From NCBI GenBank assembly GCA_026389845.1, contig JAPLHB010000188.1:1-64000 (forward strand): 64,000 nt of DNA. Direction: 5' to 3'. Position 1 is the first letter of the stretch, and each line of letters begins with the position of its first letter. The DNA is from Chloroflexota bacterium (GTDB lineage Bacteria > Chloroflexota > Anaerolineae > CG2-30-64-16). Under the pieces are notes generated by a model. That model was not told the origin of the DNA, searched no databases, and was given only the letters and a program-made list of their open reading frames with translations. Position numbers and translations under genes: made by a program. This document shows, piece after piece, positions 3,943-32,277 of this stretch.

Positions 3943-4242
3943 ATGGCTATCCAGTATCAGTACCAGACTATGACAAGAGGCTTGACACTGGGCGCGGCTA
4001 CCGAGCAGATGATCGAAGACCTGCGCCAGCTCTTCCCTGATGCCGAATTTCTGATCCAGGGTGAGACTTATGGGACAGCCGAAGACATCATCGTCAAGGT
4101 CTTTGTGCGCGATGATAACCGCCTGACTGAAATCAGCAGAAAAGCCCACGAGTTGAGCCTCCAATATGAATTGGCGACCGGCTACTTCATCATGCCCATG
4201 ACGCTGCCCATCGCGTGCTCACCGATCAAGTACGAGGTGTAG
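3943..4242 (+). CDS. Small hypothetical protein directly downstream of HEPN gene
   Basis: ORF with ATG 2 nt after the HEPN stop; no family recognised. Confidence 0.55.
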   Translation: MAIQYQYQTMTRGLTLGAATEQMIEDLRQLFPDAEFLIQGETYGTAEDIIVKVFVRDDNRLTEISRKAHELSLQYELATGYFIMPMTLPIACSPIKYEV

Positions 4243-4286
4243 CTGTCCATTTGGCGAATACCGCCATCCCGACTATAATCGCCCCC

Positions 4287-5246
4287 ATGTCCCTTCGCCC
4301 CCTCACCATTGCCCTGATGGCCGTTCTGTGTCTCATCGCCTCCGGCGGTCTCATCTCTGCGCGTGCGGCGGATGAGACGCCCATCGGGTTCGCCCGCGGC
4401 CAGGAGACAGCGGCAAGGGACGCCGAGCCGCCGGCCTGCCCCGACCCGGCGAGCATCCCCCGGCGGATCGCCAAGGCCGAGCAGGTGACGCTGCCGATCC
4501 TGATGTACCATCACGTCCGCGAGCTGCCGGAAGCGGCAGGCGCGACCTTGCGCACGCTAACCGTCTCGGCCAGCGCCTTCGGAGCGCAGATGGCCTACCT
4601 GGCGCAGAACGGCTATCACACGGTCTATTTTTCGGACCTGGTGGCCTACTTCGATCGCGGCGCGGCGCTGCCCGATGACGCCATCATCATCACTTTCGAT
4701 GATGGCTGGCTCGAACAATATGAGGTTGCTTACCCGATCCTGCGCAAGAACTGCCTGATCGCCACTTTCTTTCCGCCGACCAACTGGGTAGACCATTCCA
4801 AGCTGACGCTGACCTGGGCGCAGGTCGAGGAGATGAGCAAGGCTGGCATGGAGTTCGGCAGCCACACGGCTAACCACTACCTGCTGACCGGTCAAACCGC
4901 CGAGCAGATCACCCGGCAACTGGAGGATTCACGGAAGACGCTGGAGGGCCACGTGCGGACGCCGATTGTCGCGCTGGCCTATCCGGGCGGCGTGTACAAC
5001 GCGGCCGTGGCGAGCCTGGTGGAAAAGGCGGGGTACGGCGTAGCCGTGGGAGTCAGCGCGGGGGTGACACACAAGGCAGAAGAGCGGTTCAGGCTGCATC
5101 GCGTCGCCGTCAACTATGCCGATACGGTGACGACCTTCGCCGCCCGGCTCGTTCCAAGCAACAACCTGCAAAACCTTCCGCCGCCGGCAATCTCCAAAAG
5201 CGCCGCGCGGCGTTTGGAGCGGATGTTGGACTCCCTCGAAAGATGA
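4287..5246 (+). CDS. Polysaccharide deacetylase (NodB-like), secreted
   Basis: LPILMYHHV, IITFDDGW, SHTANHYLL motifs; N-terminal signal-like segment. Confidence 0.9.
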   Translation: MSLRPLTIALMAVLCLIASGGLISARAADETPIGFARGQETAARDAEPPACPDPASIPRRIAKAEQVTLPILMYHHVRELPEAAGATLRTLTVSASAFGAQMAYLAQNGYHTVYFSDLVAYFDRGAALPDDAIIITFDDGWLEQYEVAYPILRKNCLIATFFPPTNWVDHSKLTLTWAQVEEMSKAGMEFGSHTANHYLLTGQTAEQITRQLEDSRKTLEGHVRTPIVALAYPGGVYNAAVASLVEKAGYGVAVGVSAGVTHKAEERFRLHRVAVNYADTVTTFAARLVPSNNLQNLPPPAISKSAARRLERMLDSLER

Positions 5247-5262
5247 GCTTGCACTATTTCCG

Positions 5263-8200
5263 TCATCCCTCTACCTGCCACGACCCCGCGCCTAACCGCT
5301 GCGTTAACTCCCCTTGCAGCTCTCGGCAGATGCGCGTCCGGTTGTTCGGGAAGTCGAGTTGGTAGCGCGGGCCGCCATTGGCCCCGATGATGATTTCGAA
5401 GCGGTCATCGCCGGGATACTGGCCCAACACATCTAGCAAATCGTTCAGGCGCTTGCGGTCATTTTCCAGGCTGGCAGTGCGCTTGAACGTCAACTTAAGG
5501 GCTTGGGGGGCCGGAGCAGCGGATGGCAGCGGATAAGCAGATGCTGGCGCCGCGGGCGCAAAGACGCTCTGCGTGCTGGCGGGCGCGGGCGGCTGGGCAG
5601 GAGCGACGGTGGGTTTGAGTGTGGCGGCCGGTTGGCTTTGGGCAACGGCCGTTTGCGGTGCGGGTGTAAGCTGGGGCTGAGCCGGTTTCGGCGGTGCGGC
5701 CTGATACGCTGGTGCGGGCGTCTCTCGCAGCGTGTGTCCCGCCGTTGCGGGAGACGTTGCAGCGCCAGCGACAGGCTTCGGGGGCGCGGCGACAGGCGCG
5801 GGCGCAGCCGGTTTGGTCGCGGTGCTGGCGGCAGGTTTGGTGGCAGGCGCGGGCGACGGCGTCACGCCCGCCTTTGGCGCGGCAGGCCGCGGAGCCGGCG
5901 CTGGCGCAACTCCCCCCTGAGTTCCCCTGAGTTCCTTCGGTTCCGCCGTTCCCTTGTCTCCTTGTCTCCCCGTCTCCCTCTCCTCCATCCATTCCGGTTC
6001 TTCCGCGGTAAACGGGTTGCCATCGCCGAAATAACTGTCTTCATCATCGTCCGCGGCATCGGAAAAGCCGGGAGGGGGCGGCGTGTAACGTGTTGCAGGG
6101 ACCGGGGCGTATTTTGCGGCGGGCTGTTCACGCACCTGGGGGCGTGAGGGCTGGACGCCGTTGCGATAGCGGTAGGCCACCGAGGAGGTGTCCTCGACGA
6201 CTTTCATCCCCTCGACGTAGTCCTGCACTGTGTCGGCGACCACGCTGATGCGGCCGTTGCGCGCCTCGGCCTTGCCGCGCACGATCACGATCTTGTCTTT
6301 CGCCCAGAGGGCGCGACGGTCGGCCAACAGCTTGGGGAAGACCGTCACGTCCACGTTGCCCTGCAGGTCTTCCAGGCGGACGAACGCCATCGTGTCGCCC
6401 TTCTTGGTGGTGATCGTCCGCACGTCACCGATCATGCCGGCAACGACGATGCTCTTGCCCGCGACCTCCTCGGTGACGTCCACGGTGGCGTGGGTAATCA
6501 CGTTGGCGAGGTCCACGGTCATTTGCTGCAACGGGTGGCTGGAAACGTACACGCCCACCAGCTCCTTCTCCCACTCCAGGGCTTCCTTTGTGGTGATCTG
6601 CGCTGCGTCGGGCAGCGACGCCAGCAGGTCGTCGGCCGCGACGTCTTCGCCGCCGAACAGGGTCAACTGGCCGATCTCGGCCGCCTCGTGGCTGGTCTGG
6701 CTGGCGGCCAGGATGCGATCCAGCGCGGCCATGAGCTGACCGCGGCCGCCGAAGTCGTCCAGCGCGCCGACCTTGATGAGAAACTCCAGCCCGCGGCGGT
6801 TGACCTGGCGCAGGTCGGTCCGGTCGGCGAACTCGGCCAGCGACGCGAAGGGACGCTGGCCGCGGGCCTTCAGCACCGCCTCGACCGGCCCCTCGCCCAC
6901 GTTCTTGATCGCGTCCAGGCCCATGCGGATGGCCGTGCCCTGCTCGACGGGGAAGGGAAACACGGTGAGCTGGCGGGGCGGGGTTAAGTGCGCCGGCAAC
7001 TGTTCGACGGTGAAGTTGTTGCTGCTGACGTTGACGTTCGGCGGCAACACCTCGATGCCCATGCGGCGGCATTCCGCGATCAATACGCCGACCTTCTCGG
7101 TGTTGTGCCGCTCGACGGTCAGCAGAGCGGCCATGTACTCGACCGGGTAATACGCCTTCAGGAACGCGGTCTGGGCCACGATGACCGCGTAGTCGGCGGC
7201 ATGGGCGCGGTTGAAGCCGTAACGGGCGAACCCCATCAGCGCGTCCCAGATCGCGTCGGCCTCCGCTTGGGTCAAGCCCGATTTCTCGTGCGAGCCCCTG
7301 GCGAAGATCTCGCGGTGCTCGTCCAGCGTTTTCTTCGACTTCTTGCTGATGCCGCGGCGTACCAGGTCGGCCTCGCCGGGGGTGTAACCGGCGATGTCGG
7401 CCAGGATTTGGATCACCTGTTCCTGATAAACACATACTCCCATCGTCTCGGCCAGGATCGGCGCCAGGAGGGGGTGGACGTACTGCGGCTTCTTTTCGTC
7501 GTGGAGGCAGGCGATGAAGTCGGGGATGAACTCCATCGGGCCGGGGCGATAGAGCGAGATCGTGGCAGTGATGTGGTCGAATTCGGTCGGCCGCAGATCC
7601 ATCAGGCAGCGCCGCATCCCCGCGCCTTCGACCTGGAATACGCCTAGCACGTCACCCGAAGTGAGCAACTCGTAGATTTTCGGGTCGTCAATGGGCAGGT
7701 TTTCCAGGGTGTACTCGATCCCGTGCCGCTCTTTGATGAGCCGAGCGGTCTCGCGCATGAGGGTCAACGTCGCCAGGCCCAGGAAGTCCACCTTCAATAG
7801 GCCGATGGACTCCAGGATCGGGTATTCGTACTGGGTCACGGTGGCAGTGATGGCCGACTTGGGCGGTCGCATCAGCGGCGTGTAATGGGTCAGCTCGCGG
7901 TCGGCGATGATGACGGCCGCGGCGTGGATGGACGAGTGCCGCGCCACCCCTTCAAGCGAGCTGGCGGTGTCGAGCAGGCTCTTCACCTTCTCGTCGCCGT
8001 CGTAGAGGTTCTTCAGCTCGGTCGAATAAAATTCTTGCCCCTCAGTGAGCACTTCTTTGATCGTGACCGGCTTGCCGGGGATGCCGGGGATCAGCTTGGC
8101 GATCTTGTCCACTTCATCCAACGGCACGGCCAGGGCGCGGCCGACGTCGCGCACGGCTGCACGCGCTTTCATCCGGCCAAAGGTGACGATCTGCGCCACG

Positions 8201-9489
8201 CGCTTGTTGCCGAACTTCTCCACGGTGTAGCGGATCAGCTCTTCTCGCTGGTCGTCGGGAAAGTCCAGGTCGAAGTCGGGCATAGTGACGCGGCCCGGAT
8301 TGAGAAACCGCTCAAAGATCAGCTTGTTGCGCAGCGGGTCGAGGTTGGTCACGCCGATGGCGTAGGCCACGATGGAGCCAGCGCCCGACCCGCGCACGTT
8401 CCACCAGATACCGCGGCGCTTGGCGTACATGCACAGATCCCAGACGATGAGGTAGTAAACGTCGAACCCCATGTCGTGGATGATTTTCAGCTCGTGCTCC
8501 ATGCGGCCGCGCACTGCGGGATCGTCGGCGCGGTCGTTGTAGCGCCAGCGCAGCCCTTCTTCGGTCAGATGGCGCAGGTAGGTTTGGTAAGTGAAGCCGT
8601 CGGGGATGGCAATGTCCGGCAGGTGGTAGGTGGAATCTTCCGGGTCCACGTCGCACATCTCGGCGATCTTGACCGTGTTGGAGAACGCGCTTTCGGGCAG
8701 GTCTATCAGCGGCAGGAAGGTTTGGCGCATCTGCGCCAGGCTCTTGAGAAAATAGGAAGAGCCGTCGTAGCGCAGCCGGCTCGGATCGCTCGCCAGGGAT
8801 GAGGTTTGCACACAGAGCAGCATGTCGTGGGGGCCGGCATCCTCTTCCTTGACGTAGTGTGCGTCGTTGGTGACGATCATCGGGAGGTCGTACTGGCGCA
8901 CAAACTCGAAAAGCTGCTTGTTGACCTGGGTCAACTCGGGGATGTCGTGCTCCTGAAACTCGACGTACCATCGGTCGGGGCCGAAGAGGTCGCGATACCA
9001 GTGCAGTCGCTCCACCGCTTTGTCCACGCGGCCGTTTTTGAGGAGCGTCGGCAGCTCGGCCGCCAGGCAGCCGGAGGTGCAGATCAGCCCTTCTTTGTGC
9101 TGCGCCAGGTAGTCGGCGTCAATGCGCGGGCGGTAGTAGTAGCCGCCGAACTGCGCCGCCGAACAGATCTGCAGCAGGTTGCGGTAGCCGGCCAAATTCT
9201 CGGCCAGCAGCAGCAGGTGGTGGCGCTCCTTGTCCAGTTCGTTGTCGCGGCCCGTCATCGGCCGGCCGTGCTGGGTGATGTACGCTTCGACCCCCAGGAT
9301 CGGCTTGACCCCCTCCTTTTTGCAGGCGCGGGCGAACTCGATGGCGCCGTGCATCGCGCCATGGTCGGTGAGCGCGAGTGCAGGCTGCCCCAACTCGGCC
9401 GTGCGCTTCGCCATCGGCGCGATGCGGCCCAGGCCGTCGAGCAGCGAGTATTCGGAATGGACGTGGAGATGGACGAAGGGTTCGGGCAT
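5263..9489 (-). CDS. dnaE: DNA polymerase III alpha subunit with long Pro/Ala-rich C-terminal linker
   Basis: [18 protein letters not shown] start, [53 protein letters not shown]-fold region, then P/A-rich tail. Confidence 0.95.
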
Positions 9490-20079: not shown

Positions 20080-20551
20080 TGATGAAACCTCCGAGGTTAG
20101 TTGCTACCCAATAGAGAGTATCGCGGGAATAGCCTGTTCCCGATAGAGTCTATTATACATGACGCGGCGCGATTCTGAGAATTTTCGCTTTGTGCTTTGC
20201 GTTTTGCGATCCGCGCGGCCTTTCTTCGGCTGCTAAAACCGACTTGACATCTCAGGGGTCTGGTGTTATTCTTATGTCCTACACTATGGGAGTGCAGTAC
20301 GATCCTGCTCCCGGCACAAACTCGGTTTTGGATTCCAGAACTAGCTGGACAGATGAGTGCGCTCCGTTGCGCCTCAGGACCACGACAGAGAAGGCTGAAA
20401 GGGGGTGATTCCCGGCTAAGCTTCCCAGGTCATGTCGTCGTCAAGGTGTATGCCCAGTTGGCGATAGCCTGCGCCGCGTAGCACGGCGACCCTCTGGCTA
20501 CGTCGGGCATCCGGTATCTCATCCGAACCACATCACATTTAGGAGGAGAAC

Positions 20552-22519
20552 ATGTCTGTCAAGAAGCTGTCCATATTGCTCGGCATCCTGTTGATCGCCA
20601 GCATGATCCTGACTGCCTGCCCGGCCCCTACGCCGCAGGTTGTCGAGAAGATCGTGGTCCAGACCCAGGTGGTCAAGGAAGAGGTCAAGGTCGTCGAGAC
20701 CAGGGTCGTCGAGAAGTCGGTTGAGAAGATCGTCGAGAAGCCAGTCGAGAAAATCGTCGAGAAGATCGTGGCAGCCGAAGACTACACCACCCCGCACCCG
20801 ATCCTAAGCGACATCAGGGTCCGCCAGGCCATTGCGTACTGCATCAACCGCGATGAGCTAATTGCCTCCGTGTACCCGTACGTCGTGGACAAGAAGGCCC
20901 TCCGTATGGACACCTTCCTGCCTAAGACCCACTGGGCCTACAAGGGGCCATACACGGATTACGAATTCAGCATCGAGAAGGGCAGCAAGCTGCTGGACGA
21001 GGCTGGCTGGACGTTGGCCAAGGGCGCGACCGTCCGCGCCAACAAGAAGGGCGACGCCTTGGCGCTCAAGTTCACCACCACCACCGCGCAGTTCCGCCAG
21101 ACCTGGGCCGCCGTGGCCGAGCAGAACCTGGCCAAGTGTGGCATTCAGTTGATCCGCCAACACGTCCCTGCTTCCTGGTGGTTCGGTGACACCACCGGCC
21201 TGGCCCGCCGCGATTATGAGTTGGGTGCTTTCGCCTGGGTTGGCCAGGCAGATCCTTCCGGCCGCACCCTCTACGCCTGTAACCAGATCCAGTTGCCCAG
21301 CAATAACTGGGAAGGCCAAAACGGCATGGGCTGGTGCAACAAGACCGCCAGCGATGCCATCATCAAGGCCAATAACACCCTGATCAAGGATGAGCGCATC
21401 AAGGCCTACGACATTGTCCAGAAGGAATTCTCCAAGGACATGGTCTCGCTGCCGTTGTTCCAGCGCGCCGAGGCCGAGGCCTGGAGCATCAACCTGGAAG
21501 GCATCAAGGTTGATCCCACCGAGTACGCGACCGCCAGCGGTCCCACCTGGAAACTCAAGAACGGCGGCGATACGGTCGTCTTCGGCTTGTCCCAGGAGCC
21601 GGCCTCGCTGTATCAGTTGGTCGAGGACGCGGCGGTGGCTCGTCAGGTCGGCCAGCTCGCGATCGGCGTCATTTATACCCAGTACAACTACGACTACCAG
21701 CCGGCCCTCCAGAGCCCGTTGAGCACCATCGAGTCCGGGCTGGCCAAGAACGTCACCATCGAGGCCAAGGCGGGCGACACTGTCTACAGCACCGATGGCA
21801 AGCCGGTCAAGCTGGAGAAGGGTGCGAAGCTCTTCGACGCGGACGGCAAGGAAGTCGAGTACGCTGGCAGCGGCACGGTGAAGATGCCACAACTCACCGT
21901 CACCTACAAATTCAAGGACTTCACCTGGAGCGACGGCACCAAGGGCTCGGTCGAAGACCTCAAGCTGGGCTACAAGAACGACTGCGATAAGGACTCCGGC
22001 GCGACCTCCTTCATCACCTGCGAGAGCATCGCCAAGATTGATTGGGGCACCGGCCTGGAGTTCACCGTGACCTATGTGCCCGGCGTGCAGACCCCAACCT
22101 ACTACCTGGCCCCCTTCTATATCTACCCGGCGAATATGAAGGTAAAGGACGGTCGCCTGCTGAAGGATGTCCCCGCGAAGGAATGGACCACCCTGCCTGA
22201 GATCGCCGAGAAGCCGTTGAGCTACGGCCCGTTCGTCGTCAGCGAGTGGAAGAAGGGCGAGTACATCAAGCTGACGGCCAACAAGTTCTTCCAGCCGGCC
22301 CCGGCCGCCAAGAACGTCACCGTGCTGATCGTCACCGACACCAACCAGGCTGTGGCGCAGCTTCTGAGCGGCGACGTGGACTATCTGGAGAAGGCCACGC
22401 TGGGCGGCGGCGCCGAAGTTCAGAAGGTGCTGGATGCCAAGAAGGCCGGCAAGGTGAACGCCGAGATCATCGCCAGCCCCACCTGGGAGCACATTGACAT
22501 GAACCTGTTCACTAAGTAG
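20552..22519 (+). CDS. Oligopeptide-type ABC transporter substrate-binding lipoprotein, apparent circularly permuted order
   Basis: Lipobox ILTACPAP; SDIRVRQAIAYCINRDELI (normally C-terminal half) precedes GDTVVFGLSQEPASLYQLVEDA and LSYGPFVVSEWKKGEYI (normally N-terminal half). Confidence 0.85.
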   Translation: MSVKKLSILLGILLIASMILTACPAPTPQVVEKIVVQTQVVKEEVKVVETRVVEKSVEKIVEKPVEKIVEKIVAAEDYTTPHPILSDIRVRQAIAYCINRDELIASVYPYVVDKKALRMDTFLPKTHWAYKGPYTDYEFSIEKGSKLLDEAGWTLAKGATVRANKKGDALALKFTTTTAQFRQTWAAVAEQNLAKCGIQLIRQHVPASWWFGDTTGLARRDYELGAFAWVGQADPSGRTLYACNQIQLPSNNWEGQNGMGWCNKTASDAIIKANNTLIKDERIKAYDIVQKEFSKDMVSLPLFQRAEAEAWSINLEGIKVDPTEYATASGPTWKLKNGGDTVVFGLSQEPASLYQLVEDAAVARQVGQLAIGVIYTQYNYDYQPALQSPLSTIESGLAKNVTIEAKAGDTVYSTDGKPVKLEKGAKLFDADGKEVEYAGSGTVKMPQLTVTYKFKDFTWSDGTKGSVEDLKLGYKNDCDKDSGATSFITCESIAKIDWGTGLEFTVTYVPGVQTPTYYLAPFYIYPANMKVKDGRLLKDVPAKEWTTLPEIAEKPLSYGPFVVSEWKKGEYIKLTANKFFQPAPAAKNVTVLIVTDTNQAVAQLLSGDVDYLEKATLGGGAEVQKVLDAKKAGKVNAEIIASPTWEHIDMNLFTK

Positions 22520-22688: not shown

Positions 22689-23906
22689 ATGACCAACTAC
22701 CTGATCCGCCGTTCTTTTCAGATGGTCTTGGTGGTTTTGCTGTCCGCGGTCTTCACTTATTTTCTGTTCAACATTTCGCCCGGTGGGCCGTTGACCGGTC
22801 TGCAGCAGACCCAGCGGAGGTTGACTCGCGAGGATATTGCGCGCATTCGCGCCCAGTACGAGTTAGACCTTTACTGGCCCGTTCGTTTCTCCCGTTGGCT
22901 GATCGGCCACCCGAGTGGCCCGATCGTCATCAACGGGCAAGAGTGGTTTGCCAATGTGGTCGTGGGCTGCTATCTGCCGCGCGACGAGCAGGTGACGGAT
23001 CGTCGGGGCAATACGGTCACCCGGCCGACGGGTTGCGATGACTACGTTTATCTCGCTGAGTTGCCCAAGCTGCATCCGCCGATTAAGTCCAGCAACGGCA
23101 TTTTCCGCGGCGATTTTGGGCTTTCCAGCGTGATTCTCAAGGACCGACCGGTTTCGGAGTTGCTGGTCAGTCGCATCGGGCCGACTGTCGAGTTGATGAC
23201 CCTGGCGACTTTGCTTTCGCTCCTCATTGGCGTTCCCATCGGCATTTATAGTGCTGTCAAGCAGTATTCCCGCTTCGACTATGTGTTTACGACCGTTGCC
23301 TTCATCGGCTCCTCGATGCCCACGTTTTTCTTCGGTCTGTTGATGATTCTGCTATTCTCGGTGTTCCCGGTTTTCTGGAAAGATGCCATCCCGTGGATTC
23401 CGCGTCTGCCGTCAGGCCTGCGGATCGCCGTGCGACCTTATGAGATCGCCTCGTGGCTTCCCCAAATTCAACCAGAATCCTTCATTGACCAACTGTTGCA
23501 CCTGCTCATGCCGGTCAGCGTACTCACGTTCTTCTACGCCGCCGGGTGGAGCCGCTTCGTGCGTTCCTCAATGCTAGAGGTGATGCGCCAGGATTACGTG
23601 CGGACGGCGCGCGCGAAAGGGCTGTTCGAGCGGGTTGTCATCGTCAAGCACGCCCTGCGCAATGCCCTGATCCCATTTGTGACCATTGTCGTCCTGACGA
23701 TTCCGGGCATCTTCAGCGGCGCTATCATCACCGAGACCGTCTTTGCCTGGCCCGGCATGGGGCGACTCTATTTTGACGCGTTGACCCGCAGCGACTGGCC
23801 GGTGGCGCTGTCGTTCATCTTCATCACGGCAGTCTTAACCGTTATCGCAACCATGATCGGTGACATCCTCTATACGGTAGTAGATCCGCGAATCAAGTAT
23901 TCGTGA
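22689..23906 (+). CDS. ABC transporter permease (OppB/DppB-like)
   Basis: LIRRSFQMVLVVLLSAVFTYFLFN, RQDYVRTARAKGLFERVVIVKHALRNALIP. Confidence 0.92.
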   Translation: MTNYLIRRSFQMVLVVLLSAVFTYFLFNISPGGPLTGLQQTQRRLTREDIARIRAQYELDLYWPVRFSRWLIGHPSGPIVINGQEWFANVVVGCYLPRDEQVTDRRGNTVTRPTGCDDYVYLAELPKLHPPIKSSNGIFRGDFGLSSVILKDRPVSELLVSRIGPTVELMTLATLLSLLIGVPIGIYSAVKQYSRFDYVFTTVAFIGSSMPTFFFGLLMILLFSVFPVFWKDAIPWIPRLPSGLRIAVRPYEIASWLPQIQPESFIDQLLHLLMPVSVLTFFYAAGWSRFVRSSMLEVMRQDYVRTARAKGLFERVVIVKHALRNALIPFVTIVVLTIPGIFSGAIITETVFAWPGMGRLYFDALTRSDWPVALSFIFITAVLTVIATMIGDILYTVVDPRIKYS

Positions 23907-23937: not shown

Positions 23938-24942
23938 ATGACCGTCGCTACCCGATCCATTGCCGCACCACGTAGTCGTGCCGAGGACGCCTCGCAGGAG
24001 AATCAACTCCAGGTCGTCTTCCGGCGGTTCTTGCGCCACAAACTGGCGGCTGTGTCCTCGGTGCTGATCCTGTTTGTCTTCGTGGCATCCTTGCTGGCCC
24101 CGTTGATCGCGATGTGGCCTCGCGATGATGTAGACATCTTCGTGCCATCCCGACCTGCCCCCCCGGGGACGATAGACAGAGACGGTCGCGTCCATCTCCT
24201 GGGCATTGACCATCTCGGCCGCGATCTGTTTACGCGCGTCCTCTACGCGGCGCGCGTCTCGCTTTCCATCGCTTTTTTGGTCACCCTCTTGGGCGAGGGG
24301 ATTGGGGCCTTGATCGGCGCGGTCGCCGGCTATTACGGAAAGGCTATCGACGCGATCATTTCGCGCATCATTGAGTTTATGCTGACGATTCCCACCTTGC
24401 CGATCCTCTTGATCATCTCCGCGATCCTGATCAAGAGCGATGCCAAGTTGCCACTACCGCCTTTCGTGGTGCATGCGTTGACGGCGGTCTTGCTGGCCTC
24501 GGAGCGCGAGGCGCAGAAGGTCGTCGTCTTGATTCTGATCCTGGTTGTCTTTGGCTGGCTCGGCGCGGCCCGTCTGATGCGCGGCATGGCGCTATCGTTG
24601 AGCAAGCAGGATTTCGTGGAGGCGTTGCGGGCGGTCGGCGCTTCGGATGCCCGGATCATCTTTCGGCACATCATCCCCAACGGCATTGCGCCGATCTTGG
24701 TCAGCGCCAGTTTGAGCCTGGGCGGCGTCATCGTCACTGAGTCGGCCCTGAGCTTCCTCGGCCTGGGTGTGCAGGATCCTACGCCGACCTGGGGCAACAT
24801 GCTGGCGCTTTCACAGAGCTATATGTTCCAGCATCCCTGGCTGCCGTTGGTGCCTGGCATTCCGCTGGTCATCGTTTCCATCGGCTTCAACTTCATTGGT
24901 GATGGCCTGCGCGACGCGCTCGACCCGCGGCTAAAGCGGTGA
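23938..24942 (+). CDS. ABC transporter permease (OppC/DppC-like)
   Basis: LLGIDHLGRDLFTRVLYAARVSL, DFVEALRAVGASDARIIFRHIIPNGIAPILV. Confidence 0.92.
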   Translation: MTVATRSIAAPRSRAEDASQENQLQVVFRRFLRHKLAAVSSVLILFVFVASLLAPLIAMWPRDDVDIFVPSRPAPPGTIDRDGRVHLLGIDHLGRDLFTRVLYAARVSLSIAFLVTLLGEGIGALIGAVAGYYGKAIDAIISRIIEFMLTIPTLPILLIISAILIKSDAKLPLPPFVVHALTAVLLASEREAQKVVVLILILVVFGWLGAARLMRGMALSLSKQDFVEALRAVGASDARIIFRHIIPNGIAPILVSASLSLGGVIVTESALSFLGLGVQDPTPTWGNMLALSQSYMFQHPWLPLVPGIPLVIVSIGFNFIGDGLRDALDPRLKR

Positions 24943-25018
24943 TGGCTCGTGCTCAATGGCTGATAGCGATTTCCGGTTCCTCACCTCAATAGGCATTTCT
25001 AACGTTACAGAGAGCGCA

Positions 25019-26101
25019 ATGACTCCTCCTACGAACGGCTCTAGTGAGCAACCGCCCCTGATCGAAGTCAAGGGTCTGAAAACCTTTTTCTTCACCGAAG
25101 ATGGCGTGGTCCAGGCTGTCAACGGCGTGGATTTCGTCATTCGCGAAGGAGAGGTCATGGGACTCGTGGGCGAGTCCGGCAGCGGCAAGAGCGTCACCGC
25201 TCTCTCCATCATGCGACTGTTAGGAGGAACCTCCGGCAAGATCGTGGAGGGCCAGGCGCTTTTCAAGGGCCGCGATTTGGTCCAGTTGTCCGAAGTAGAG
25301 ATGGTCAAGATGCGGGGCAACCAAATGTCCATGATCTTCCAGCAACCTACGAGTTGCCTGAACCCCGTTTTCCGCATCGGCGACCAAGTGGCCGAAGTGC
25401 TGATGATTCATCAAGGCCTGGACAGAAACGCGGCCTGGGCGCAAGCGATCGAGTCGTTTCGCAAGGTGGGCATCCCGGATGCCGAGAAGCGGGCGCAGGC
25501 TTTCCCCCACGAGATCTCCGGCGGCCAGGCGCAGCGCGTAATGATCGCCATGGCGCTGGCTTGCCTGCCCGACCTGTTGATCGCCGACGAGCCGACTACC
25601 GCCCTGGACGTCACGATTCAGGCGCAGATCCTCGATCTGATGCGCCGCCTGCGCACCGAGACCGGCACGGCAATTCTGCTCATCACTCACGACATGGGCG
25701 TCATCGCCGAGATGTGCAACCGGGTCGCGGTGATGTATGCCGGGCAGATCGTAGAGTATGCCGACGTTAACACCTTGTTTGAGAATCCGTTGCATCCCTA
25801 TACTGAAGGCTTGCTGGCTGCTATTCCGGTGCTCGGCGAGGTGCGCGATACCCTGGCGGTGATTCCTGGCTCGGTGCCCAACCTGATCAACCTGCCTCCC
25901 GGCTGCAAATTTGCACCGCGCTGTCCCTATGTGCGCGAGCGGTGTGTCCAAGACCTGCCGCGGCTGGCCGAGGTTGAGCCGGGCCACAAGGTGCGCTGCT
26001 ACATGCGCGACCTGGATACCAGGGAGGAATGGGGCGAGGTGACGCGGGCAGACTGGCATTTCATGGGTGATGAAGTACTCATAGAGACGGCAGGACGCTA
26101 G
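25019..26101 (+). CDS. Peptide ABC transporter ATPase (OppD/DppD-like)
   Basis: [50 protein letters not shown]-terminal oligo_HPY region. Confidence 0.95.
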
Positions 26102-26109
26102 GAGATCGT

Positions 26110-27117
26110 ATGCCCACGATGATCGTTGTGCCCCAAAGAGACCTGTTGGTGGTCGAAAATCTAAAGAAGTATTTCCCTGTCCGGTCCGGGCTGTTCCAGC
26201 GCATCGCAGCCTGGGTTCAGGCTGTGGACGACGTGAGTTTTGCTATTCGCGAAGGCGAGACCTTTGGATTGGTAGGCGAGTCTGGCTGTGGCAAGACCAC
26301 CATCGGCCGCACCATCTTACGATTAACGCCAGCCACCGGCGGCTCGGTTTTTTTCGACGGCGAAGATGTATTCAGCAAACGGGGCAGCGAGCTTAAAGCC
26401 TTGCGCCGTAACATGCAAATCGTCTTTCAGGATCCTTACTCGTCGCTGGACCCCCGGATGCCTGTGGGCGAGATCATCGGCGAGAGCTTGCAGATTCACG
26501 GTATCGGCAACAACCGAGAACGCGCTGAGATCGTCCAGGGGATGCTGGCAAAGGTGGGGCTGAACCCATATCACGCCCGCCGTTACCCTCACGAGTTCTC
26601 TGGCGGTCAGCGGCAGCGCATCGGCATCGCCCGCGCGTTGACCCTACGCCCCAAGTTCATCGTCTGCGATGAGCCGGTCAGCGCGCTGGATGTCTCCATC
26701 CAGTCGCAAGTGCTCAATCTATTGAAAAACCTCCAGAAGGAATTCGGCCTGACCTACCTCTTCATCGCTCACAACCTGAGCGTTGTCGAGCACATCAGCG
26801 ACCGGGTCGGCGTCATGTATCTGGGCAAAATGGCCGAGGTGACCACGCGCGAGGAGTTGTATCGTGATCCGCTTCACCCATATACCCAGGCGCTGCTCTC
26901 GGCTATTCCCCTGCCCAATCCCAAGCTGAAGCGCCGGCGGGTCGTACTGAGCGGTGACGTGCCCAGCCCGCTCAATCCGCCGCCGGGCTGCCGTTTTCAT
27001 CCGCGTTGCCCTCTCGCTGTAGACGTCTGCAGGCAAATCGAGCCGGTCTTCGAGCAAAAGGTGGCCGATCACTGGGTCGCATGTCACCTGGTTTCCGCGA
27101 GCGCAGTCAAGATGTGA
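26110..27117 (+). CDS. Peptide ABC transporter ATPase (OppF/DppF-like)
   Basis: [50 protein letters not shown]. Confidence 0.95.
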
Positions 27118-30297: not shown

Positions 30298-30405
30298 TCG
30301 CTCATCGCGAATCGCCCGACGAAAGGGGGTGATGTGGCTTTCAGGCGTATACTCGAAGCTCAGTCAACCCGTTTTAAGTTTCACCATTCCATCAGGAGGA
30401 GAACC

Positions 30406-32277
30406 ATGTCTATCAAGAAGCTGTCCGTGTTGCTCGGCGTGTTGATCATCGCCAGCATGATTCTCACGGCCTGCCCGGCCCCCACGCCGCAGGTTGTTGA
30501 GAAGCAGGTCGTCGTGACCCAGGTCGTCGAGAAGGAAAAGACGGTCATCCAGACCCAGGTCGTCGAGAAACAGGTCGAGAAGATCGTCGTCGCGACGGCC
30601 GCGCCGACCGCCAAGCCGGTGCGCGCGAATGTCGTTCACATCAACAATGGCATTGGCGATACGCCCTCGCTCGATCCTAACGTCGCCGAAGATACCAGCT
30701 CGATCACCGTGATCGAGAACTCATTCGTCGGCCTGACCCGCTTGAACGAAGTGACCAGCGAGCTCCAGCCGGGCATGGCGACCAAGTGGGACATCTCGAA
30801 GGATGGCTTGACCTACACCTTCACGCTGCGCAATGACGTGCCCTGGGTCCGGTGGGATGGCGTGAAGAAGGCGGTCGCCAAAGTCCAGACCTGCCCCGAC
30901 AAAGACGGCAAGACCAAGAACCGTCTCGTAACGGCCAAGGACTTCGAGTACGGCATTCTGCGCGCGCTCAACCCGAAGACTGCTTCGCCTTACGCCTACG
31001 TGTTGGCGTTTGTTATGGCCGGAGCAAGCGACTACAACTCCGGTACGATCACTGACACGGCGAAAGTGGGCGTAAAAGCCATCAACGACACGACGCTCGA
31101 GATGAAGTTCCTCACCCCCGCCGTGTACAACCTCAACATCGCGGGCCTGTGGACGGCGTACGCGACCCCCTCGTGGCTGATTGATGGGGATGACTGCACA
31201 GCCGCGCGCGCCGAGCGCTGGATCGAACCCGGCTTCTTCCAGTCCTACGGCCCCTACACGCTGAAGGAATGGGTGCACGACTCGACCATGACCATCGTCA
31301 AGAACCCCTTCTGGCCTGGCTCGAAAGAGATACCGCAGGCAAAGGTGAACGAGGTCGTCTTTAGTATGCTCGACGATGCGGCGGCCATGGCGGAGTTCGA
31401 AACCGGCAACCTGGATGTGGCTGCTGTGCCGACCGGCGATATGGACCGGGTCAAAGCGGATGCCAAGTTGTCCAAGCTGCTGGTGAGCGCGCCGAACACC
31501 TGCACGTACTACCTCGGCTTCAACACCACCGCCAAGTACGTTGACAACGCGAACCTGCGCCGCGCGCTTTCCTTTGCCGTAGATCGCCAGAAGCTGATTG
31601 ACACCGTGCTGAAGGGTGGTCAGGAACCGGCACAATGGTTCGGTCGCCCTGGCATCGCCGCTGCGCCGACGATGAAGGACAGCCCCACCCTGGGCGTCAA
31701 GTTCGACGTCGCGAAAGCCAAGGAGTATCTGGCTGCCGCGCTCAAGGAATTGAACATCACGGCGGATAAACTGGACGTTTCCTACATGTTCAATACGTCT
31801 TCTGGCCACCAGAAGATCGCCGAGTTTGTCCAGCAACAGTGGAAGGACAATCTCGGACTGAACATCAAGCTGACCAACCAGGAATGGAAGGTCTACCTTG
31901 TGACGACCAAGAGCAAGGACACGCCGCAGGTCTTCCGCATGGGTTGGTGCATGGACTATCCCGACGAAAACAACTTCATCAACGAAGTGGTCGCCTCGGG
32001 TGGCTCGCAGAATCCGGCGAAGGACGGCAAGCCGACCGGCGGCTTCATGTGGAAGAACGACAAGTTCGAGAAGCTGGTCAAGGATGCCGCCGTTGAGGCG
32101 GATTCGAAGAAGCGTCTTGACTTGTACAAGCAGGCAGAGCAGATCATTACTGTTGACGATCCTGTGATGATTCCGCTCTACTGGTACACCCGCAACACTC
32201 TGACGGAACCGTACATCAAACGCACGTTCTCCGTGGGCGGTCACGAAATCTTCTACAACTGGGAAGTGACGCAGTAA
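30406..32277 (+). CDS. Peptide ABC transporter substrate-binding lipoprotein, canonical order
   Basis: MSIKKLSVLLGVLIIASMILTACPAP lipobox; N-to-C order typical of SBP_bac_5 (DTPSLDPNVAED ... NLRRALSFAVDRQKLIDTVLKGG). Confidence 0.93.
   Translation: MSIKKLSVLLGVLIIASMILTACPAPTPQVVEKQVVVTQVVEKEKTVIQTQVVEKQVEKIVVATAAPTAKPVRANVVHINNGIGDTPSLDPNVAEDTSSITVIENSFVGLTRLNEVTSELQPGMATKWDISKDGLTYTFTLRNDVPWVRWDGVKKAVAKVQTCPDKDGKTKNRLVTAKDFEYGILRALNPKTASPYAYVLAFVMAGASDYNSGTITDTAKVGVKAINDTTLEMKFLTPAVYNLNIAGLWTAYATPSWLIDGDDCTAARAERWIEPGFFQSYGPYTLKEWVHDSTMTIVKNPFWPGSKEIPQAKVNEVVFSMLDDAAAMAEFETGNLDVAAVPTGDMDRVKADAKLSKLLVSAPNTCTYYLGFNTTAKYVDNANLRRALSFAVDRQKLIDTVLKGGQEPAQWFGRPGIAAAPTMKDSPTLGVKFDVAKAKEYLAAALKELNITADKLDVSYMFNTSSGHQKIAEFVQQQWKDNLGLNIKLTNQEWKVYLVTTKSKDTPQVFRMGWCMDYPDENNFINEVVASGGSQNPAKDGKPTGGFMWKNDKFEKLVKDAAVEADSKKRLDLYKQAEQIITVDDPVMIPLYWYTRNTLTEPYIKRTFSVGGHEIFYNWEVTQ

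Follow-up and report, generated by a model that had tools for sequence, protein, structure and literature searches.

The gene at positions 20552-22519 of the window (the whole 64,000-nucleotide stretch of Chloroflexota DNA analysed here) encodes a family 5 solute-binding protein (SBP) whose two halves stand in swapped order. We consider it very probable that this lipoprotein serves a Dpp/Opp-type ABC importer as its substrate-binding component and that it arose from a canonical Anaerolineae family 5 SBP by one ancient circular permutation. The analysis demonstrated the swapped order, a seamless junction, a conserved ending, a single clade, concordant halves and a conserved operon. Importers that use family 5 SBPs as receptors include those for peptides and nickel, among many others.

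Organization of the permuted gene and its operon

The following features were assigned, all on the forward strand.

20541..20546, +, ribosome-binding site AGGAGG, 5 nt 5' of the ATG, read from the sequence
20552-22519, +, open reading frame of the permuted SBP, 655 aa; lipoprotein, SBP_bac_5 family 5, cluster C
20552..20620, +, lipoprotein signal peptide with lipobox LTAC and lipidated Cys23, from the sequence
20621..20785, +, disordered Val/Glu/Lys-rich stalk, aa 24-78; pLDDT <50 for aa 22-74, weak conservation
20792..21550, +, permuted-first block, aa 81-333, domain III and the C-terminal tail of domain I; from Pfam, PDB profiles and rotation scan
21551..21568, +, new junction, linker KLKNGG, aa 334-339, leading from the old C-terminus to the old N-terminus; conserved junction pattern
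21569..22516, +, permuted-second block, aa 340-655, start of domain I, domain II and continuation of domain I; from Pfam, PDB profiles and model
22689..23906, +, DppB-type permease, 39-78% identity; follows the permuted SBP directly in almost all loci that include downstream DNA
23938..24942, +, DppC-type permease, conserved synteny
24956..26101, +, DppD-type ATPase, conserved synteny
26110..27117, +, DppF-type ATPase, conserved synteny

The permuted-first block corresponds to the C-terminal half of canonical SBP_bac_5 and ends at the invariant Trp333; the permuted-second block corresponds to the N-terminal half and closes with the final hinge strand (residues 635-650, TWEHIDMNLFTK). The linker between the blocks is 4-6 residues long, and the junction consensus of the permuted proteins, PTEYxTANxxEWELxDGGDTxVxGFxQEP, fits 71 of 74 members. 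The C-terminus lies exactly four residues past WEHxDxx in 70/74. Cys23 is nearly invariant among the permuted homologues, with a lipobox upstream of it in 70 of the 74 proteins.

The leader with its ribosome-binding site, signal peptide, lipobox and stalk (20541-20740) shares 81% DNA identity over ~199 bp with the leader of another SBP gene of the window (30394-30589), although the bodies of the two genes can hardly be aligned. Similar leaders precede other binding-protein genes in the genome (L003, L004, L006, L008). Because such similar leaders stand before hardly related bodies and recur on other binding-protein genes, these leader-stalk segments appear to behave as an exchangeable export and stalk cassette.

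Evidence for the swapped chain order

A preliminary description, made from the letters of the DNA, had proposed that the chain is circularly permuted, and Pfam, PDB profiles, rotation scans, phylogeny and predicted structure all agree with it. The Pfam model SBP_bac_5 (PF00496) matches the protein with an E-value of 8.5e-41 (140.7 bits, cut-off 32.4) in two stretches, with residues 82-238 aligned to positions 210-355 of the 368-position profile. Each of the two further SBPs in the window (at 30406 and 35624) gives a single Pfam stretch (profile positions 1-367 and 3-364), and both thus have the normal order that had been ascribed to them. A profile of 32 permuted proteins aligned with the Thermus structure 2d5w along chain residues 322-582 first and 79-311 afterwards, and with AppA (1xoc) along residues 271-518 and then 82-241. 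Against a canonical neighbour, the native sequence scored 244, whereas rotated versions starting near residue 329-379 scored 425-428, the background maximum being 61 among 100 shuffles; the corresponding scan of predicted secondary structure gave 382 rotated versus 209 native, with its peak at residue 329. Both scans peak at the predicted junction. In place of the standard SBP_bac_5 order I-II-I-III-I, the order found is III-I(tail)-I-II-I, and we therefore file the protein as a permuted SBP_bac_5 subfamily and not as a standard member.

The relationship to a canonical parent is recognizable at both ends of the rearranged chain. When the query was rotated to canonical order and searched in Anaerolineae, it produced one-piece alignments (positions 4-565 of 575, 33-36% identity, E-value 1e-63), and the rotated profile covers each of these canonical sisters with a single domain match, the native profile with two. 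The sisters read ...TWEHIDFNIDPVDERYVFFDDVKVRQA... straight through the site at which the permuted chain has its end and its start, and their own C-terminus is ...PTANSEMWNIENFDI (pattern PTxNSEMWNIExFD), a terminal part that in the permuted proteins is directly joined to the old first strand. Junction and end sequences compared with those of the sisters thus show the old termini joined and the new termini at a site that is contiguous in the parent, while the rotated query and the trees of the separate halves show each half to be homologous to the complementary half of one and the same parent clade.

A tree of the rotated sequences places all permuted proteins in a single clade (100%) whose neighbours are the canonical sisters (100), and the pair stands apart from other family 5 SBPs (97). 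Either half, analysed by itself, yields a tree in which these permuted and canonical clades are again distinct, each strongly supported, although in the tree of the C-terminal half the joining of the two clades is poorly supported (38-43%) and one long branch intrudes. Apparently, the permutation arose once.

Location of the cut and predicted structure

The domain I-to-III crossover is one of the two links joining the lobes of the protein. Positions 51-296 of the A1 profile match residues 266-490 of DppA (1dpp), so the first block comprises domain III and the tail of domain I, which places the new termini at this crossover. The preliminary description had correctly put a block of the C-terminal half first; its wording should be changed in that this block is the whole of domain III together with the C-terminal tail of domain I, and the cut therefore lies at the crossover between domains I and III. 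In OppA, domain III consists of residues 270-486 and domain I of residues 1-44, 189-269 and 487-517 (PMC6305025); AliD is organised like OppA, with domain III at residues 297-582 (PMC11192437). Crystals of AliC, a canonical family 5 SBP, contained a domain-swapped dimer whose turning point is the loop of residues 290-294, just before its domain III (PMC11192437). Because this dimer turns on the same loop, the comparison suggests that the crossover is dispensable, i.e. that the domain I-to-III link can go without the fold being lost.

An AlphaFold2 single-chain model built with 32 homologues has a mean pLDDT of 86.5 and a pTM of 0.80, with disorder confined to the signal peptide and the stalk. 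Neither a non-permuted fold nor two independent truncated domains, the outcomes against which the preliminary description had set its claim, was obtained: one confident chain is predicted. Foldseek searches with this model returned family 5 proteins, matched in most of the top hits over only about half of the query chain ( ~220-280 columns, E-value ~1e-12, TMt ~0.37), whereas the canonical neighbour from L042, in spite of its weak model (pLDDT 61), was matched over ~600 columns (E-value 1e-30, TMt up to 0.71). Foldseek aligns sequentially and cannot follow permutations; half-length matches for one protein and full-length matches for the other are therefore the pattern expected of a permutation. 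Bearing on the presumed three-domain, two-lobe fold are the confident single-chain model and the matches to family 5 structures, which under purely sequential alignment come by halves.

Distribution of the permuted proteins

Scanning GTDB with one genome per species identified 50 loci, nearly all of which encode the C-terminal half followed, uninterrupted, by the N-terminal half, with 42-67% identity to the window protein. Order, junction and ending are the same in ~45 loci beyond the window. The carriers are Anaerolineae, Caldilineae-type and Chloroflexia genomes and include isolates of Chloroflexus, Oscillochloris and Bellilinea; the permuted SBP is present in 44 of the 399 sampled Chloroflexota genomes, 43 of these being among the 282 good-quality genomes and some being single-contig. 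The permuted SBP is a conserved Chloroflexota subfamily and no oddity of its source genome, and the proviso of the preliminary description that the order might be widespread in the phylum has thus been borne out. No full-length match to the permuted protein was found in the plasmids searched.

A match in an Actinobacterial MAG (L060) was rejected as a permuted relative, its chain order being canonical. Contigs titled Singulisphaera (L041) and Candidatus Gracilibacteria (L053) carry sequences resembling those of Roseiflexaceae and Chloroflexaceae, and are probably mislabelled or mis-binned.

Several relatives are divergent or damaged. Two Chloroflexus paralogues of the permuted SBP (L032:5755-8220 and L043:5603-8185) lack a lipobox, are ~150 residues longer at the C-terminus and have no transporter gene in their vicinity. 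A shortened relative in L136 (minus strand, ~7911-8642; genome G166, single contig) lacks domains I and II: its domain III runs straight into the final WEHIDFNL strand, after which comes an additional C-terminal domain similar to the one in L032 and L043. Divergent permuted paralogues of ~35% identity, with no adjacent DppBCDF genes, are found in L133 (8414-10141, minus strand) and L134 (8535-10301, plus strand), the latter with a canonical-order homologue next in line. In L135 (genome G262, minus strand, 4060-5845), an apparent indel located exactly in the linker between the halves splits the permuted gene into two frames, which may reflect sequencing error, decay or a true split.

Two explanations for the swapped order other than permutation were weighed. 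The source genome of the window is a MAG with 8% contamination, and an artefact of metagenome assembly or binning, or a broken gene, might be suspected; however, identical order, junction and ending in dozens of independent genomes, single-contig ones included, rule out an assembly artefact, and the invariant residues and fixed operon speak against it as well, leaving this explanation a negligible probability. Domain shuffling, by which a C-terminal and an N-terminal half of two different family 5 SBPs were fused, would be in keeping with the different evolutionary rates of the halves (~55-78% vs 44-62% identity between homologues) and with the leader-stalk, which has clearly been swapped among paralogues. 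Yet the two half-trees agree on a monophyletic permuted clade and on the canonical Anaerolineae clade, and the rotated chain aligns end to end with the canonical sisters, with both junction ends recognisable. Within the canonical sampling used, the half-trees rule out a fusion of two parents, which we regard as very unlikely. Judged by their sequences, the permuted proteins are one permuted gene and no two-parent fusion, since the separately analysed halves agree.

Operon context and probable role in transport

In loci that reach far enough, the permuted SBP is nearly always the first gene of an SBP-DppB-C-D-F operon. Lipoboxes in 70/74 proteins, together with BPD permeases and Dpp/Opp ATPases (DppBCDF) directly downstream, give it the export signal and operon setting of SBP_bac_5. 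In several genomes where no permuted form was found, an operon of this type begins with a canonical sister. In the DppB tree, permuted and canonical-sister operons make up one clade apart from other Dpp permeases, within which the permuted operons are nested together; the labels "cansis" given there to L054 and L135 are spurious, owing to a fragment at a contig end and a permuted gene with a frameshift. Because canonical sisters share the operon type and the DppB genes form one clade, the permutation seems to have taken place inside an existing importer operon that stayed in use.

In some loci both topologies occur side by side. A canonical sister stands directly upstream of the permuted gene in L042:3467-5563, L044:3653-5650, L056:3736-5673 and L083:3742-4926, and in L132:11610-13397 a sister SBP of canonical order is the immediate neighbour of the operon with the permuted SBP; one transporter may be served by both topologies. 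By-eye comparison of motifs suggests that the Asp of AliD that binds the peptide amino-terminus (W498-V499-x-D501, PMC11192437) may be Gln/Glu in the permuted protein (FAWVGQ/E).

Two further alternatives concern what the protein does. It might have given up its role as a transporter receptor and become a tethered sensor or surface protein, as could be surmised from the Chloroflexus copies (L032, L043), with their missing lipobox, extra C-terminal residues and lack of adjoining transporter genes, and from the divergent copies without nearby DppBCDF (L133, L134). In the main lineage, to which the window belongs, DppBCDF nevertheless follows almost without exception and the permease tree is concordant with the SBP tree, which makes such a loss of role highly unlikely. 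Alternatively, the functional form might be an intertwined dimer, with domain III of one chain packing on domains I-II of another; the cut does sit at the crossover loop of the domain-swapped AliC dimer (PMC11192437). The remaining crossover and the confident model, which comes from a run on a single chain only, favour a monomer, and we consider the dimer unlikely. Taking models and context together, the permuted SBP is most likely an ordinary Venus-flytrap receptor with a cut hinge.

Discussion

The permutation can be pictured as follows. The two old ends of the mature domain, which both lie in domain I, were connected by a short linker; the chain was opened at the hinge crossover from domain I to III, and the cassette of signal peptide and stalk now precedes domain III. 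The resulting chain is expected to keep the Venus-flytrap fold of two lobes, to cross the hinge covalently once and no longer twice, and to have its free ends as well as its membrane tether located there. The captured solute, probably oligopeptide-like, would be delivered to DppBC. As to origin, we infer that the gene was duplicated in tandem and in frame and then lost its outer halves, the leader-stalk serving as a portable cassette. The exchangeable leaders and the canonical sisters directly upstream of the permuted gene in L042, L044, L056 and L083 would be in keeping with such a route and a re-used leader, though they are no proof of it.

More tentatively, and with more doubt than conviction, we raise the possibility of a phylum-wide "cluster Cc": a functional peptide-type receptor with a naturally cut hinge, in which a single crossing together with a hinge-located membrane tether takes the place of two crossings, and whose altered mechanics of opening and closing were selected in lipid-anchored Chloroflexota receptors.

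A permuted clade and its canonical sister clade in the same phylum, sometimes in the same operon, constitute a before-and-after pair, which could be used to test whether Venus-flytrap closure and docking to the transporter need two hinge crossings. The permuted proteins also offer an evolved split or permutation site for biosensor design, and they are a warning that sequential alignment and domain annotation under-describe permuted SBPs.

A literature search of open-access papers revealed no earlier permuted family 5 SBP, and TpMglB-2 (Tp0684) of Treponema pallidum was the only natural permuted ABC-transporter SBP that it found. TpMglB-2 is a permuted, lipid-tethered SBP conserved in a clade and proposed as "Cluster Bc", in which ligand binding and conformational change (closure) persist despite the permutation (PMC4990184). 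The two cases share natural, clade-wide circular permutation of a lipid-tethered ABC binding protein and differ in fold, TpMglB-2 having the cluster B sugar-binding fold whereas the Chloroflexota protein is of cluster C; all of its listed sequence and fold matches are to family 5/cluster C, which sets it outside Cluster Bc. TpMglB-2 is cut inside the sheet of its N-lobe, which gives it a fourth hinge crossing, whereas the cut described here falls exactly at the lobe crossover and removes one; similarly, the permuted part of TpMglB-2 has little sequence similarity to its parent, while both halves of the Chloroflexota SBP are clearly homologous to one canonical clade.

Among solved structures, the best relatives by profile and fold are 2d5w, an oligopeptide-binding protein of Thermus thermophilus, and AppA of B. 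subtilis (1xoc). The WEHID end and the NNxxGQN motif of the permuted SBP recur in 2d5w, but both structures have canonical order and only ~20-25% identity per half. The closest relatives overall are the canonical Anaerolineae SBP_bac_5 clade (L106-L119 and the neighbours in L042, L044 and L056), with ~33% identity over the whole rotated chain; they have the same WEHID hinge motif and, in several cases, the same SBP-B-C-D/F operon, and differ from the permuted proteins in their normal domain order and single-stretch match to the solved OppA/AppA structures.
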